A stretch of 64,000 nt of DNA, taken from an uncultured Pelagibacteraceae bacterium. GTDB lineage: Bacteria; Pseudomonadota; Alphaproteobacteria; Pelagibacterales; Pelagibacteraceae. This document shows positions 1 to 8,669 of this stretch, piece after piece (position 1 is the stretch's first letter; the number at the start of each line of letters is the position of its first letter). The translations under genes were made by a program, and so were the position numbers. The stretch spans positions 62,001 to 126,000 of the forward strand of contig CACOXS010000001.1 of the NCBI GenBank assembly GCA_902631255.1. The letters are read 5' to 3'. Under the pieces are notes generated by a model, which saw only the letters and a program-made list of their open reading frames with translations, was not told the DNA's origin and did not search any database.

Positions 1-612
1 AGGTTTTGATTTGTCTAATTCAGCTGGTTTAACATGGTCTATAATTTTATCTAAAAGTGGATTAAGATTCTCTCTTGGACCATCAACTTCAAGATCTGCC
101 CATCCAGACCTTCCACTAGCATATAATACTGGAAAATCTAGTTGTTCTTCATTAGCATCTAGACTCACAAATAAATCGAATGTTTCATCTAAAACTTCAT
201 TAGCTCTTTGATCTGATTTATCCAATTTATTTATAACTACAATCGGCTTTAAACCCTGTTTTAATGCTTTTGCTAAAACAAATTTTGTTTGAGGCATTAC
301 TCCTTCAGCAGAGTCTATGAGTAATAAAGCTCCATCAGCCATGCTAAGCACTCTTTCAACTTCTGCAGCAAAATCTCTATGACCGGGTGTATCAATTATA
401 TTGATTCTTGAATTCTTCCAATTAATCGATGCAGGTTTAGCTAGTATTGTAATTCCTCTTTCTTTTTCTAATTCTCCAGAGTCCATCAGCCTTTCATCAA
501 CAACCTCATTTTCTCTAAATGATCCACTTTGCTTCATTAAGTTATCAATTAAGGTTGTCTTGCCGTGATCAACATGGGCAATTATGGTGATATTTCTTAT
601 AGTATTATTCAT
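1..612 (-). CDS. typA: GTP-binding protein TypA/BipA, N-terminal part (continues beyond window start)
   Basis: Minus-strand translation from 612 begins [60 protein letters not shown]1 [14 protein letters not shown] and NKLD motifs of translational GTPases. Confidence 0.93.
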
Positions 613-697
613 AAATCTGGGTTCTTATACATATTTAAACACTTTTGAAAACTTAAAAAAAACTACACTAGGCTTGAAAAAATTAAGTGCTCTCTTT

Positions 698-814
698 TTA
701 ATTTGCGTTTTTTCGCTTTTCGCGTTTTAATTTTCTTTTTTCTTTAAAACTTAATTTAGGTTTTTTCTTAATACTAGAGTCTTTAAATGATTTTCCACTA
801 TACCTTTTCGACAT
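698..814 (-). CDS. Small highly basic protein (38 aa), MSKRYSGKSFKDSSIKKKPKLSFKEKRKLKREKRKNAN
   Basis: Hand-translated intact ORF between typA and the accessory zone; Lys/Arg-rich; not in the supplied ORF list because it is short. Confidence 0.45.
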   Translation of the reverse strand: MSKRYSGKSFKDSSIKKKPKLSFKEKRKLKREKRKNAN

Positions 815-846
815 AAAAATAATTCAATATTACAAATTTTTTAAAG

Positions 847-884
847 AAAAAAAAAGGGCAGTAAAAACTGCCCTTTTTGAATTT
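847..884. terminator. Rho-independent terminator-like hairpin GGGCAGT-AAAA-ACTGCCC with A-run/T-run on both sides (bidirectional)
   Basis: Perfect 7-bp stem flanked by 9 A and 5 T; identical copy downstream of groEL at 4770-4803. Confidence 0.75.
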
Positions 885-1013
885 TTGTTTGAGATTAATG
901 AGGATTACATTCTCATACTGGTTTCTAATAATACTTGATTTACTTAACATTTTGAAAATTCCTTCATCACTCTTCATCACTATTTAAAGCATGTTAAAAG
1001 ATGATTATTTTAT
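847..1013. repeat. Junction element copy A: duplicated groEL 3'-end/terminator sequence plus tail shared with copy B
   Basis: 847-916 matches 4770-4839 with 2 mismatches in 70 nt; 904-925 (attacattctcatactggtttc) identical to 3496-3517; downstream ttcatcac motifs and aaaagatga.tt.atttta tail also shared with copy B. Confidence 0.8.
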
Positions 1014-1402
1014 TTTTCGAACTCTTTTTTAATTGGAGTAAAATATAAGAAAACTAATATCGCTCCACTATTTGCCCAACCTAATCCATCAAGCAAATAA
1101 GAGATTGGGTCATAAGCACCTATGCCCATTAACAACGCAAATATTGATCCCAAAATGAATAGAAATAAATACATTTGTTTTCCAATATTCTTAAATTTAT
1201 ATAATAGATATAAATTTACTAAGTATAATACCAAAAAAACTAGAGCAATTACTCCAAGCATATCGTTCATATCGTTTGATTGACTTATACCTTCATTAAA
1301 AGCGATAACTATTTCAGATTCAAAAAAAGCAGAAATAAATATTAAAATTATTAATGATAAATCTAATAAAATTAGTCTTTTGAATATTATTTTTAAATTC
1401 AT
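1010..1402 (-). CDS. Hypothetical multi-pass membrane protein (130 aa)
   Basis: Supplied ORF; about four hydrophobic segments; no recognised family. Confidence 0.6.
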   Translation of the reverse strand: MNLKIIFKRLILLDLSLIILIFISAFFESEIVIAFNEGISQSNDMNDMLGVIALVFLVLYLVNLYLLYKFKNIGKQMYLFLFILGSIFALLMGIGAYDPISYLLDGLGWANSGAILVFLYFTPIKKEFEK

Positions 1403-1456
1403 ATTATGTTAATTATTACTACAATTTAAAAAAATACCAAATAAAATTGAATAAAA

Positions 1457-1618
1457 ATGGGACTATATACCAGTAGAAAAAATTTTGATTTTGAAAAATT
1501 TGTAAAAATTCTTGGAAGAGGAAGAAACTCTTATATTATTTTTGCAATAGAGGAGGCATGTGGTGGTGAAGAAAAATTAAAAGCAATTCAAAAGATGATT
1601 TCATTGAAGAGTCAGTAG
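1457..1618 (+). CDS. Small hypothetical protein (53 aa), MGLYTSRKNFDFEKFVKILGRGRNSYIIFAIEEACGGEEKLKAIQKMISLKSQ
   Basis: Hand-translated intact ATG-TAG ORF; its 3' segment (1580-1605) recurs in junction copy B (3589-3614). Confidence 0.4.
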   Translation: MGLYTSRKNFDFEKFVKILGRGRNSYIIFAIEEACGGEEKLKAIQKMISLKSQ

Positions 1619-1662
1619 AAACAGGAAGGAAACGAGAAGGGCAACTCGATTTAATTAATCAA

Positions 1663-1758
1663 CTATAAACCTAAGAATAATTTTACAATATAGAATAGTC
1701 CAAAGCACAATATTATGAATAAAATAGCACCTGATAGTAACTGCCATAGAAAAAACAT
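1663..1758 (-). CDS. Putative single-TM microprotein (31 aa), MFFLWQLLSGAILFIILCFGLFYIVKLFLGL
   Basis: Hand-translated intact ORF with one continuous hydrophobic segment; no other support. Confidence 0.3.
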   Translation of the reverse strand: MFFLWQLLSGAILFIILCFGLFYIVKLFLGL

Positions 1759-1780
1759 AGTAAATTAATAATATAGTAAA

Positions 1781-2212
1781 ATGAGTTGGTTGTATAAGTT
1801 TTTATTGGATGTAATTGAAAAAAAAGATTTTTGTACGCAATGTCATTGTACAACATGTGGTGCAACTGAATTTAGAGCAACTCTTATTTCTAAATTAAAA
1901 ATTTATAGCAAGATTCCAAACATTACAAAATTATCAAAAACTAATGAAAAAAAAAGGTTTATTGCTCCAATGTACCTAGATTTAGAAAAAGAACTACAAA
2001 GAAAAATTGTCAATGAGATAAGTGATGAATTGAGAAAATTGACAGATGATCAGATATCACGTTTAGAAGAATTAAAAAGAGATTTTCCAGTGCTAAGATG
2101 TTTATTTGTTGAATTTGAAAATTCCTCTGATTATTTATACTCCTTACTAGTTGGTACTCCTGCGGGAATTTATTTAAAAGGTATGATTGAACATCATAAA
2201 AATGAATATTGA
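1781..2212 (+). CDS. Hypothetical protein with N-terminal Cys cluster CTQCHCTTCG
   Basis: Supplied ORF (143 aa); first gene of a three-gene overlapping set. Confidence 0.6.
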   Translation: MSWLYKFLLDVIEKKDFCTQCHCTTCGATEFRATLISKLKIYSKIPNITKLSKTNEKKRFIAPMYLDLEKELQRKIVNEISDELRKLTDDQISRLEELKRDFPVLRCLFVEFENSSDYLYSLLVGTPAGIYLKGMIEHHKNEY

Positions 2213-2909
2213 TATTAATTTTAATTTTTATTCTGATACACCCAAAGGAAAAGATCCCGATACATTTAGTGAAACTTTAAGAAAGTATCACCAATTTCTC
2301 TGGAGTAAATCTTTACCAAATGGATCAATTTTTAAACTGGATATTAAAATACCTAAAATTCTACATCATAAATCAGATTTAGGAGAGTTTTTTTTATCCA
2401 GCGATTCACTTGCCCACGATTATAGTAAATGGAAAAGAACAGAAAATATTATTAAACAAATTCCTAAAAAAGAAATAGAATCTTTTTATAATCTTGGTTG
2501 TACTATTGGAGGATATATAATTTTTCCTTCTAACAGAGTTGATGATAAAATGACAATTAATGGTTCTCGTGGAGTAAATAGCAAGATTAAAGATAGATTT
2601 GATTTAACACTTGAGTGCATAAAAAGATTTTATCTAAATGATAAAAGTCCATTAACTGAAACTCTAAATAGATATAAGTCTTTTTTTAAATTATTTAATA
2701 ACTTTGAAGGATATGTAGATTTTTTTCTTCTTCAAGATTTGGTTAAGGAAAAATACTCTAAAATTGATTATTTCTTACCATTTGATAATTTTCAAAATTC
2801 ACCTATCCCAAATGATATACTAGAATACAAATTGTATAGAAAAAATATGATTGAATTTATTAGTAAAAGAAATCAAAGAATTAAAAATTATTTAAATGAA
2901 AAAATTTAA
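2187..2909 (+). CDS. Hypothetical protein (240 aa; start may be the Met at 2202)
   Basis: Supplied ORF; overlaps both neighbours, suggesting co-translation; no recognised family. Confidence 0.6.
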   Translation: MNIIKMNIDINFNFYSDTPKGKDPDTFSETLRKYHQFLWSKSLPNGSIFKLDIKIPKILHHKSDLGEFFLSSDSLAHDYSKWKRTENIIKQIPKKEIESFYNLGCTIGGYIIFPSNRVDDKMTINGSRGVNSKIKDRFDLTLECIKRFYLNDKSPLTETLNRYKSFFKLFNNFEGYVDFFLLQDLVKEKYSKIDYFLPFDNFQNSPIPNDILEYKLYRKNMIEFISKRNQRIKNYLNEKI

Positions 2910-3393
2910 TACAGATATTTTTTTTGATATTCTATCGGGTAAGGATAAAGAAAATCTGGTAAAAAAAATGAATATTCTTCAAAATCCACAAGTATTATTT
3001 CAGTATGCTTTAGCAAAAGGGTATGGTTTTAATAAAAAAGGTCTTTGGTACGACTTCATTAATGATTTATTTGATATGGGTCAATATTCAATAAAATCAA
3101 AACTCAATGAACTTGATAACCAGATTAAGTATAAATCAATTTTAGCAATAAAAGGTGGAGATGAAAAACATGTTTTTTTTTTAGATGTTGGTTTATTAAA
3201 CTTCTCAAGAAAAGATAAGTATTTTCTAATTTATTCGTTTAATTCATCAGATAGTTATGATTACCCAGAAGTTGTAAAAATATACAATTCTCAAAAAAAA
3301 ATAGATAAAAAATTGTTATTTAAGAACATTTATACAGTTCTAAAAAAAAATGGTCTTTTGACTTCAACAATTAAGAAAAAAATCAAAATCTGA
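2896..3393 (+). CDS. Hypothetical protein (165 aa)
   Basis: Supplied ORF overlapping the upstream gene; no recognised family. Confidence 0.6.
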   Translation: MKKFNTDIFFDILSGKDKENLVKKMNILQNPQVLFQYALAKGYGFNKKGLWYDFINDLFDMGQYSIKSKLNELDNQIKYKSILAIKGGDEKHVFFLDVGLLNFSRKDKYFLIYSFNSSDSYDYPEVVKIYNSQKKIDKKLLFKNIYTVLKKNGLLTSTIKKKIKI

Positions 3394-3420
3394 ATGAAAT
3401 TAAAAAAGATATAAAAAAAA

Positions 3421-3456
3421 CCCCCGAAACTTTCGTTCCGAGGGTTCTAATTTTGT
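3421..3456 (+). terminator. Terminator-like hairpin CCCCCGAAAC-TTTC-GTTCCGAGGG followed by a T-rich stretch
   Basis: Imperfect inverted repeat 28 nt after the stop of the 2896-3393 ORF. Confidence 0.6.
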
Positions 3457-3618
3457 TTAGTGTATGTATTTAGAGTGTTCTCTATATGTAAACGTATTAC
3501 ATTCTCATACTGGTTTCAAAAATACGAGTATTTATTGACATATTGGAGATACATTCATCATCATTCATCACTTTTCAAACGCAATTCAAAAGCAATTCAA
3601 AAGATGACTTCATTTTAA
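3421..3618. repeat. Junction element copy B (terminator, spacer, attacattctcatactggtttc, ttcatcac repeats, aaagcaattcaaaagatgacttcatt)
   Basis: 22-bp exact match of 3496-3517 to 904-925; extended similarity to 926-1013; 25/26 match of 3589-3614 to 1580-1605. Confidence 0.7.
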
Positions 3619-3631
3619 TGTTGGGATAGGT

Positions 3632-4690
3632 TTGGGTATGAAAGCAGTATGGACATCAGGAAAAGTAAAAAAAAGTAGTTATAAACTTAGTAATTTGAAA
3701 CTAAATTTTGAACCAGGAGAAATTTTACTTTTATGTAGTTTGAGTGATTTAAAAAAAAAAGAAAATTTAGATAAGGTTAGAAATTTCTTTTCAAAAGATT
3801 TTCAAGATAGAGAAGCAAAAGATTTTTATGGAGACAGATATCCTTATGGAGATTGTCATCTTTTTAATGCAGTAGTATCAAATAAATTTTATGAAAAACA
3901 CAGAATGTACGGTTACAATAAAGAGACAGTTCTTCAAAAAATTAAAGATGACGAAAAAAATAATTACATTGAAAGACATACTCCAGGAAGCGATCATAAT
4001 TATAATTATATTTATTTTTTTGATAACGATAAGGATGGATTGTCACCAAACATTAGCAAAGTAATTAAAAAATCCAATAATAAACAATTAAGTTTTTTTG
4101 TTAATCCTAGTAATATTGCAACAAGTGATTTTATTGATAAGGCAATATTTTTACAGGGTAAGCACAAACCTTACGATGGAAAATTATTTAAGATTAAAAA
4201 AAACGAATTAGTATTTTGTTGTATTCCAGAAACAAAAAATATTAAGTGTAAGACACAATTTACAAAAAGTGATTTAGAAAAATTTGATAACGATATTGAT
4301 TTCTTTATCAAAGATAGAATTAAGAAAAATAAACTTATTAAGTTTAAAGTTCCCAATGGTGTTTATGGAATATATAAAATAAAATATATTACATTTAATT
4401 ATGAAAACCTTCGCGGAATTGCTGAACCTTATGAATTGCTTGGACATTTAATTAAAAAATTCAATCCAAAAGAAGGTACAATAGGTCATGAACAGGAAAA
4501 ATTAGAAAGACTCTTTAAAAATGGCACTCTGTCTAAGTATCAATTTTCTAGGGCACGCATGAGATCATGGGAGGGCGATACACTTTCAGGGGAAATATAC
4601 TCTTTAAAAAGAAAATACAAAAAAGGCACTTTGTCAAAAAAAGATTTTGAAAAAGAAAAAAATAAATTAGTTCTTAGAAAACTCGATTAG
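3632..4690 (+). CDS. Hypothetical protein (352 aa) with two C-terminal SHOCT-like short helical repeats
   Basis: Supplied ORF; C-terminus has LERLFKNGTLSKYQF and LKRKYKKGTLSKKDFEKEKNKL. Confidence 0.55.
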   Translation: MGMKAVWTSGKVKKSSYKLSNLKLNFEPGEILLLCSLSDLKKKENLDKVRNFFSKDFQDREAKDFYGDRYPYGDCHLFNAVVSNKFYEKHRMYGYNKETVLQKIKDDEKNNYIERHTPGSDHNYNYIYFFDNDKDGLSPNISKVIKKSNNKQLSFFVNPSNIATSDFIDKAIFLQGKHKPYDGKLFKIKKNELVFCCIPETKNIKCKTQFTKSDLEKFDNDIDFFIKDRIKKNKLIKFKVPNGVYGIYKIKYITFNYENLRGIAEPYELLGHLIKKFNPKEGTIGHEQEKLERLFKNGTLSKYQFSRARMRSWEGDTLSGEIYSLKRKYKKGTLSKKDFEKEKNKLVLRKLD

Positions 4691-4769
4691 CAAAAAAATA
4701 AAAACCCCTCCCCAAATCTTTCATCATACATTCATCACTATATTCATCACTAATGGTTTTCGTATAAAT

Positions 4770-6803
<2,034 letters not shown>

Positions 6804-6830
6804 ATATTCTCCTATATAAATATTGAGTTC

Positions 6831-6858
6831 ATATAGAGATTGGTAATACTATTTCAAG
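6831..6858 (-). promoter_or_regulatory. Putative heat-shock (sigma-32-like) promoter upstream of groES
   Basis: Minus strand CTTGAAA (6852-6858) and CTCTATAT about 13 nt downstream, resembling CTTGAAA-N11-16-CCCCATNT. Confidence 0.45.
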
Positions 6859-6927
6859 ATATACTTGATAATTAGTTTATTAAAAAAGGTAGGAAATTGT
6901 GGATTTTTTGGTTTATAGATTATTTTA

Positions 6928-7746
6928 ATGACGAAAAATTTAGACATTGAGGGTTTAAGATCAATTGCAGATGACTACGAGTTATTTTATGTGGATATTT
7001 GGGGGGTAGTCCATAACGGGATAAATGTTCATAAGAATGCAATTTCTGCTTTAAAAGAAATTTTAAAATTAAAAAAAGATATTGTTCTTTTAACAAACGC
7101 ACCAAGGCCGAATAAAAATGTTAGGAATTTTTGTGAAAAACTTGGGATGGATAAAACTTTATCAAAATATGTTTTTACATCCGGGGAAGCAGCAATTAAA
7201 TATTTAAAAAAAAATTTATATTCAGACAAATTTTTTCATGTTGGCCCTCCAAGAGATTTTGATTTATTTGAAGATTTTAAAAAAAACAAAACAAGTAATA
7301 TAAATGATGCATCATATTTATTATGCACAGGTTTGTTTGATGAGCAAAAAACTGATTTAAATTATTATAAAGATATTTTAGAAAGCTCAATTTCAAAAAA
7401 AATGATTTGTACTAATCCTGATTTGGTTGTTGATAAAGGTGAAAAAAGAGAACTATGTGCAGGTTCAGTTGCAATAGTTTTTGAAAAAATGGGAGGAAGA
7501 GTTACTTATTTTGGAAAACCTTATCCTGAAGTGTATAATCAATCTATAGATAACACTAATAAAAAAACTCTCTCAATTGGTGATAATTTGAATACAGATA
7601 TAAAAGGCGCGAATCTTTTAAATTTTGATTCTTTAATTATTTCAAATGGTATTCATAAAAATGAAATTAAAGAAAATGGAATTGAAGCAACTGCGAAATC
7701 TTATGAAACAATCTGTAACTATATCCAATCAGATTTAAAATGGTGA
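6928..7746 (+). CDS. HAD-superfamily hydrolase, class IIA, TIGR01459-like
   Basis: FYVDIWGVVHNG, LLTNAPRP, GDNLNTDIKGAN motifs; adjacent to ribF. Confidence 0.85.
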   Translation: MTKNLDIEGLRSIADDYELFYVDIWGVVHNGINVHKNAISALKEILKLKKDIVLLTNAPRPNKNVRNFCEKLGMDKTLSKYVFTSGEAAIKYLKKNLYSDKFFHVGPPRDFDLFEDFKKNKTSNINDASYLLCTGLFDEQKTDLNYYKDILESSISKKMICTNPDLVVDKGEKRELCAGSVAIVFEKMGGRVTYFGKPYPEVYNQSIDNTNKKTLSIGDNLNTDIKGANLLNFDSLIISNGIHKNEIKENGIEATAKSYETICNYIQSDLKW

Positions 7747-8669
7747 AAATAAAATTATATAATAGTTTTAATATTAAAAAAAATCATAAAAACTCAATTA
7801 TTTTAATTGGAAATTTTGATGGACTTCATTTGGGGCATCAAAAATTATTTAGATTAGCAAAAAGATATAAAAAAAAATATTCTACAAAGATTGGTGTTTT
7901 AACTTTTGAGCCGGTGCCAAAAATGTTTTTTAACTCCAACTTAAAAAATTTTAGATTATCGAATTTAAACCAAAAAATTGAAAATCTTAATAAACTCAAT
8001 GTTGATTTTGTTATTATACAAAAATTTAATCGTAATTTTTCAAAAACAAAATCAATTTCATTTATTAAAGAAACTTTAGGCAAAAGACTAGGTCCAAAAT
8101 TTATTTTCGTAAGTAACAATTTCAGATTTGGAAATAAAAGAGAAGGGAATGTAAAACAGTTAATTCATTACGAGAAATTATGTAATTATAAAATTGTTAA
8201 ACCACAACCTTTATCAATTAAGAAAAAAATTATTTCATCATCATTATTAAGAAAATATTTGCAGAGCGGGAAACTCAATAGTGTCAATAACCTTTTAAAT
8301 AGAAAATGGTCTATTGATGGAAAAGTCATAAAAGGTAGACAACTAGGAAAAAAGATTGGTTTTCCAACAGCCAACATAGATATCAAAGATTATGTTTTGG
8401 CAAAACCAGGTGTTTATGCTGTTAAAGCTAAGAAAATAAAAAGTTCAAAATATATTAAAGGAATAGCCAATTTAGGATACCGACCTACATTTAACGGAAA
8501 AAAAATATTGCTAGAAGTTCATTTATTTAATTTTTCTGGAAATTTATATAATAAGTATTTAAGAGTAGAATTTTTAAAATTTATAAGAGCTGAAAAAAAA
8601 TTCAAAAATATAGATCAATTAAAAAAACAAATTAAAATTGATTTAGTAATTGCAAAAAAAACGAAATGA
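7740..8669 (+). CDS. ribF: Bifunctional riboflavin kinase/FAD synthetase
   Basis: LIGNFDGLHLGHQKL and GFPTANIDI...PGVYAV motifs. Confidence 0.95.
   Translation: MVKIKLYNSFNIKKNHKNSIILIGNFDGLHLGHQKLFRLAKRYKKKYSTKIGVLTFEPVPKMFFNSNLKNFRLSNLNQKIENLNKLNVDFVIIQKFNRNFSKTKSISFIKETLGKRLGPKFIFVSNNFRFGNKREGNVKQLIHYEKLCNYKIVKPQPLSIKKKIISSSLLRKYLQSGKLNSVNNLLNRKWSIDGKVIKGRQLGKKIGFPTANIDIKDYVLAKPGVYAVKAKKIKSSKYIKGIANLGYRPTFNGKKILLEVHLFNFSGNLYNKYLRVEFLKFIRAEKKFKNIDQLKKQIKIDLVIAKKTK

Follow-up and report, generated by a model that had tools for sequence, protein, structure and literature searches.

A likely junction of two tandem, site-specifically integrated cassettes at the 3' end of groEL in SAR11 bacteria

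The 3' end of groEL is already known to serve as an attachment site in staphylococci, where it is used by phage-inducible chromosomal islands such as SeCISE48 (PMC8125051). The units that we describe here at the groEL gene of SAR11 bacteria resemble those islands in that the att site overlaps the last groEL codons and the product is left unaltered. However, the staphylococcal islands carry their own integrase, excisionase and phage-interference genes, while the SAR11 units carry none of these, are mostly 0.4-3 kb in length, form arrays and swap terminators, and the hosts and att sequences are unrelated. Tandem additive islands are likewise known at tRNA ends. Methylopumilus fGI-2 consists of such islands with repeats of the tRNA end and units of 330 bp to 42 kb (PMC10872708), and in Alteromonas fGI1 cassettes are added at a tRNA (PMC4119200). 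The SAR11 locus shares with them the serial gene units at one conserved gene end, the end repeats and the many unknown genes, but its target is a protein gene rather than a tRNA, and neither paper, in the sections that bear on this point, describes defined ends at which matched arm repeats, a promoter and a terminator occur.

Integrons, like the SAR11 locus, hold tandem one-gene units that are exchanged at one site, with the recombinase lying outside the cassette. Integron cassettes have attC sites and a promoterless gene, whereas each SAR11 unit has an 8-bp core, direct-repeat arms, promoter-like DNA and a terminator of its own, and the site targeted is groEL. No integron integrase was found beside the array among the listed PF00589 matches of 201 genomes, or in the cargo by NCBIfam, and SAR11 hypervariable regions are reported to lack attC (PMC2217521). 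Tycheposons, too, are cargo elements found in streamlined plankton and have a gene end as their site; they are described as measuring 4-200 kb, being flanked by tRNA genes and carrying a tyrosine recombinase, xerD (PMC10872708). The attP of phage lambda is a core with arm sites, a pair of direct repeats lying on one side and a set of three on the other. The SAR11 units differ from it in having no integrase gene and, on one side, a terminator between arm and core.

When compared with the defining features of these systems, the locus showed both filled sites (1-5 units) and empty sites, together with repeats of the target end at the borders, as expected of an additive island. An integrase of its own, which would mark a satellite, was not met in 87 cargo ORFs, while insertion at the groEL 3' end with an unaltered product was. 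Among the features of tyrosine recombinase att sites, an identical short core, precise insertion and matched arms were met, and inverted half-sites were not. Since defining features of integrons and of satellites were tested for and found lacking, we filed the locus under neither, and regard the kind of element as an additive island. Already known are the role of groEL 3' ends as att sites and the occurrence of tandem additive islands at the ends of tRNA genes; what is new is the SAR11 groEL site, the integrase-less units of one or a few genes with matched arms, the terminator swap and the family-wide spread. We found no description of SAR11 groEL cassettes in the open-access literature searched (subscription papers and preprints were outside its scope).

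Two units between typA and groEL

The window, which is the whole stretch of 64,000 nucleotides that was analysed, comes from a SAR11 bacterium. The region between typA and an intact groEL gene, whose product ends in GGMGM, contains the following features.

1-611, minus strand: typA, the left flank, cut by the window edge; its translation was the tblastn anchor for all loci
842-904, no strand assigned: displaced host groEL 3' UTR and terminator (hairpin 851-878), part of the 96% repeat of 4765-4839
905-912, no strand assigned: core A, TTACATTC, the left border of unit 1, where identity to empty-site flanks stops
905-3496, no strand assigned: unit 1, 2592 bp, by core-to-core segmentation
905-1010, plus strand: left end of unit 1, type T1 (core, arm, direct repeats, AAAGCATGTTAAAAG)
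963-970 and 973-980: direct repeats TTCATCAC of the unit 1 left end
1010-1402, minus strand: unit 1 cargo ORF, 130 aa, membrane-like, no family; homologue in locus L021
1781-2212, plus strand: unit 1 cargo ORF, 143 aa, no family; 100% amino acid identity in locus L035
2202-2909, plus strand: unit 1 cargo ORF, 235 aa, DUF6994 (PF22507, E 1.6e-93); homologue in L035
2896-3393, plus strand: unit 1 cargo ORF, 165 aa, no family
3417-3496, no strand assigned: right end of unit 1 (RE-C), terminator hairpin 3417-3448, then spacer to core
3497-3504, no strand assigned: core B, TTACATTC, the border of units 1 and 2
3497-4827, no strand assigned: unit 2, 1331 bp, by core-to-core segmentation
3497-3614, plus strand: left end of unit 2, a T1 variant (core, arm, direct repeats, CAATTCAAAAGCAATTCAAAAGATGACTTCATT)
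3554-3561 and 3564-3571: direct repeats of the unit 2 left end
3638-4690, plus strand: unit 2 cargo ORF, 350 aa, start 141 bp from core
4720-4827, no strand assigned: right end of unit 2 (RE-A), three direct repeats, terminator 4774-4801, UTR
4720-4727, 4731-4738 and 4743-4750: RE-A direct repeats of unit 2
4828-4835, no strand assigned: core C, TTACATTC, which holds the groEL stop codon; regenerated target site
4828-6489, minus strand: groEL, intact, 553-aa ORF, to the right of the array

We consider it likely, with a probability of about 0.72, that the segment around core B (copy B) is the junction of two cassettes integrated site-specifically, in tandem, at the groEL 3' end. The initial annotation, made from sequence alone, had reported an exact 22-bp repeat, and this held: the 22-mer ATTACATTCTCATACTGGTTTC is present exactly at 904-925 and 3496-3517 (copies A and B), with no third match in the window at up to 3 mismatches, and none of 100 dinucleotide shuffles gave a match by chance. 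Its layout of copy B also held as stated, with the hairpin (3417-3448) followed by a T-rich spacer, the 22-mer, a diverged stretch, the direct repeats TTCATCAT/TTCATCAC within 3554-3571, and CAATTCAAAAGCAATTCAAAAGATGA. The proposed likeness of the two copies, hairpin included, held only in part; the layout is common, but the hairpin sequences are unrelated (GGGCAG...CTGCCC in copy A versus CCCCCGAAA...GAGGG in copy B), and the hairpin of copy B is part of the right end of the preceding unit. The division of the island into two units held, but the borders proposed for them (about 850-3420 and 3421-4770) were not supported, and the corrected borders are the TTACATTC cores, giving units at 905-3496 and 3497-4827. 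A shared minus-strand segment, read as an alternative groEL-like 3' end (SMRM followed by a stop), was not supported either. We rejected it as a remnant of groEL coding sequence, as only ~13 nt around ATGNGAATGTAA are common, and these are the recombination core itself.

The stretch 842-916 is a 96% repeat of 4765-4839 and spans the groEL terminator, 3' UTR and stop codon, and the left flank of copy A is 89% identical over 150 nt to the empty site of locus L074. Terminator-like hairpins were detected at 851-878, 3417-3448 and 4774-4801 in a terminator scan that returned 6 sites on both strands together, versus 1.2 expected. When the region was scanned with Rfam, only sub-threshold chance matches around the terminators were returned, and a sigma-70 promoter scan of the window showed no enrichment. 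Near-identical versions of the T1 left end of unit 1 are found at dozens of SAR11 loci, and the variant of unit 2 is also found at many other loci. The 350-aa ORF of unit 2 matched no family at E 0.001, with a weak sub-threshold match to SHOCT.

Insertion point, unit ends and distribution

Empty sites were seen in 27 fetched loci, with a typA-groEL distance of 160-380 bp, in which the host UTR and terminator are followed directly by the groEL end. At 19 occupied sites, including copy A of the window, the 150 nt left of the core were 87-100% identical to an empty site, and the 8-bp core TTACATTC itself matched at 6-8 of its 8 positions; beyond the core, identity drops to 22-34% over 32 nt. As left-flank identity ends at TTACATTC, the break is at the core, which is present at every delimited unit border. 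The TTA within TTACATTC is the groEL stop codon, and the groEL coding sequence is intact, with its C-terminus kept after insertion. The unit supplies a new UTR and terminator on the groEL side, and the groEL product is therefore unchanged. Site-specific insertion at the groEL core is very likely. Inverted repeats around the core did not exceed those of shuffled arms. A palindrome at the core was convincing by eye, yet proved no better than chance and was rejected. The missing inverted half-sites weaken the case for a tyrosine integrase, although cores in known systems may be imperfect.

In all, 55 distinct units were delimited, with a median length of 1,331 bp (range 138-7,341), and their ORFs are oriented forward in 69 cases and reverse in 21. 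The left end measures ~120 bp and consists of the core, ~40-50 bp, a pair of direct repeats spaced 10-12 bp apart, and a sequence like CAATTCAAAAG or AAGCAAACAGAAAG; GATGACTTCATTGAAGAGTGGGGTTAAAAT often lies immediately before the start codon of the first gene. In 33 of the 44 forward cases, this gene begins at a distance of 100-155 bp from the core. The DNA of the left end is usually promoter-like, and a promoter role is possible but only inferred, given the lack of sigma-70 enrichment in the window. The right end has a terminator, often preceded by three matching repeats, and then the next core. RE-A right ends carry up to three or four TTCATCA[CT] repeats and RE-B right ends two or three TTCATTGMA repeats, whereas RE-C has no repeats and a CCCCCGAAA...GAGGG terminator.

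The cassette repeats that we name are TTCATCAC and TTCATTGCA. Left ends of type T1 (TTCATCAC) were paired with RE-A in 17 cases and with RE-B in none, while the other types had 6 and 5 such pairings, respectively (Fisher p ~0.005, with units that are not independent by descent). The arm repeats therefore match between both ends of a unit, RE-C ends being without repeats. This absence in RE-C implies that some units are not competent, or else that the rules are not the same for all. We also observed three gene-less units with lengths of 138-164 bp (L015:963-1114, L030:1451-1615 and L115:14752-14890, numbered with groEL on the right), in which the left end is joined straight to the right end, as if the cargo had been lost between arm repeats.

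Tandem arrays were found with five left ends (L023), four (L016) and three (genome G446), and an array in genome G123 has three left ends and one more core before groEL. Arrays combine different left-end types and different genes, and serial insertion is very likely to be their origin.

The exact left-end 21-mer was found in 40 stretches among 85,462 species genomes, all of them Pelagibacteraceae. With up to 3 mismatches allowed, it was present in 12 of 201 genus genomes, and every match had 0 or 1. Wherever either flanking gene was checkable by tblastn, typA lay to the left and groEL to the right, in a single orientation; this check was possible only for loci with a flank gene on the same contig or within the fetched DNA. 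A second left-end family, CGCCAATACTSACTTATTTAA, occupies the same groEL-typA location. Its matches with up to 2 mismatches in the 201 genomes were on the groEL contig, within ~7 kb, except for one in G059, a genome in which groEL was not found, and 3-mismatch matches elsewhere were at the level of the reversed control. The composite pattern TTACATTCNCAT(25-55)TTCAT(5-7)TTCAT was found at 24 places in 296 family genomes, covering five genera, with none in the reversed control. Extra DNA without a recognised left end was present at 22 of 60 checked typA-groEL loci, and some of these islands remain unexplained by the cassette model.

The remaining proposals of the initial annotation fared well. 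Matches scattered over unrelated loci, which it had set in advance as grounds for refutation, were not seen, as all placeable matches lie between groEL and typA. Conservation of the 22-mer elsewhere was checked, and it is present across species, with the composite left-end pattern in five genera; the expected association with gene-content change was checked as well, and gene content varies from unit to unit. Its proposal that repeated insertion at a single site produced the cassette-like units downstream of groEL was supported, as was the analogy to integron attC arrays, from which it nevertheless held this array to be distinct.

Further cassette families were observed at the groEL site at L035:7445 and L172:3577 (both in the groEL-on-right orientation) and at L056:13458. 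Their internal cores include 21 nt of groEL-like sequence, TTACATGYCCATTCCACCCAT, and their arm repeats belong to the GACATTGMA type.

The recombinase and competing explanations

No integrase, transposase or recombinase was found in the cargo (87 ORFs; all 24 NCBIfam families and 25 of 36 Pfam families). There was no PF00589 protein near groEL among the listed matches in 201 genus genomes, no serine recombinase was found in 24 genomes, and the search gave no candidate for a cognate recombinase with specificity for the groEL core. Neither a circular cassette form nor an excision event was seen. Seven exact patterns and one composite gave no att-like match in IMG/VR; the matches lay inside phage genes, two of them being phage-borne groEL genes, and blastn of both junctions against INPHARED gave no match. 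A viral origin of the unit ends was rejected, since in these searches no viral contig or GenBank phage carries them. The phage groEL genes of the viral contigs L232 and L241 are ~46% identical and end in the same TTACATTCCCAT, and phage groEL could therefore in principle be a target.

Most Pelagibacter genomes have a single PF00589 protein of ~320 aa, located at the edge of the O-antigen island, which is weakly like XerD, Cre and integron integrase and falls far below the XerC/XerD cut-offs. Examples are found at L222-L230, L217, L219 and L225, and in the genome of the window itself at G000:C7:18047-18571. A palindrome, ATTACTAATGATAATTAATTGTTATCAATAGTAAT (GATAA...TTATC), is conserved just upstream of the gene, and both of its arms have co-changed in L217 and L225. 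It is possible that this protein and ATTACTAATGATAATTAATTGTTATCAATAGTAAT stand in for XerCD/dif. In a few genomes, islands carry other integrases, of phage type; one of these lies at tmRNA and another adjoins tRNA-Met. The island in L216 (~3000-8600) adjoins the tmRNA gene and that in L218 (~1500-6700) lies between two tRNA-Met genes; both are small and contain a large primase-like ORF as well as an integrase of the phage type, and we regard them as satellite-like SAR11 elements. Integrases of the arm-binding type were observed on the SAR11 islands of L216, L218, L220 and L221.

In the mechanism that we propose, the joined ends of a circular cassette would form attP, which would recombine with the core at groEL; both the circle and the enzyme, putatively an arm-binding tyrosine recombinase like lambda integrase, are inferred. 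As the sequence shows, insertion splits the site exactly at the core, such that groEL receives the UTR and terminator of the cassette, and its former UTR and terminator are pushed outward. The regenerated core would allow repeated events and hence an array, and cassettes would spread between species. That a tyrosine-type recombinase is the agent is likely, although this is inferred from the sequence. Because no cassette-encoded recombinase was found, the enzyme would act in trans, supplied either by the host or by a helper element, and on balance we lean towards such action on the present units. The likeliest source would be a helper of the phage-type integrase sort with groEL specificity, which was not found. 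A bolder reading is that of a dedicated SAR11 cassette-capture system, distinct from integrons, in which free cassettes, each equipped with a promoter, a terminator and att ends of its own, would enter the groEL stop codon by means of a recombinase acting in trans. We are tentative about this reading, and the balance tips a little against it.

The units could instead be decayed or deleted remnants of larger, integrase-bearing phages or satellites, in which case the arrays would be piles of such remnants, with no mobilisation in trans today. The gene-less units of 138-164 bp do resemble deletions between arm repeats, and integrase-bearing SAR11 islands exist elsewhere, at tmRNA and beside tRNA-Met. 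However, many species share one compact plan, with 1-2 intact forward genes at a fixed distance from the core, the cargo is intact and recently transferred, and an integrase-bearing relative is absent at groEL in 201 genomes and in viral collections, so that we consider remnants unlikely. More doubtful still is insertion by the conserved ~320-aa tyrosine recombinase of the host, as a counterpart of the integron integrase. This protein is near-universal, is the sole tyrosine recombinase detected in most Pelagibacter genomes, and has the weak likeness to XerD, Cre and integron integrase. It is nevertheless not favoured, because the GATAA...TTATC palindrome upstream of its gene is unlike the groEL core; in addition, it appears to be of the simple Xer/Cre type, without any obvious further domain for arm binding, whereas the units have arm repeats.

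Least likely of all is that the islands differ through homologous exchange of whole typA-groEL intervals, that is, as a replacement island. Conserved genes do flank both sides, and SAR11 is known to recombine often. Against this, several independent lineages lose left-flank identity at one and the same 8-bp core, and the internal cores and the element-borne duplication of the terminator require site-specific insertion. Homologous exchange may still help to spread filled sites.

Cargo and transfer of the cassettes

SAR11 are among the most abundant bacteria and have very small genomes, and how they acquire defence genes is poorly understood. Among the 87 cargo ORFs, many of which have no family, are type I restriction-modification subunits, a C5 methylase with a HaeII-like nuclease, HNH, MORN, DUF805, DUF4116, DUF6994 and HIT proteins. 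With site-specific insertion at groEL as the preferred reading, the turnover of restriction-modification genes would be tied to a concrete insertion mechanism, and the search for a recombinase in trans becomes testable. A single exact capture site would also provide a marker, in the form of the core and arm pattern, for tracking gene gain and loss in wild populations. If the bolder reading were true, streamlined genomes would hold defence genes and others in a common pool and could exchange them.

Over 1,313 nt, unit 1 shares 97% identity with a unit of L035, while the typA genes of the two are 83% identical. Similarly, cargo of L028 and L041 is 96% identical over 768 nt, with their groEL at 77%. 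The near-identity of cargo in hosts with diverged flanks indicates that the cassettes move between species, by a vehicle that is unidentified. A conserved protein of ~110 aa (beginning MQQ-ELFDFRRDILFEKDNEIARFYDVL) was observed as the product of the first gene of units in L029 (628-957), L063, L049 and L032, and in L029 and L063 it adjoins type I restriction-modification genes.
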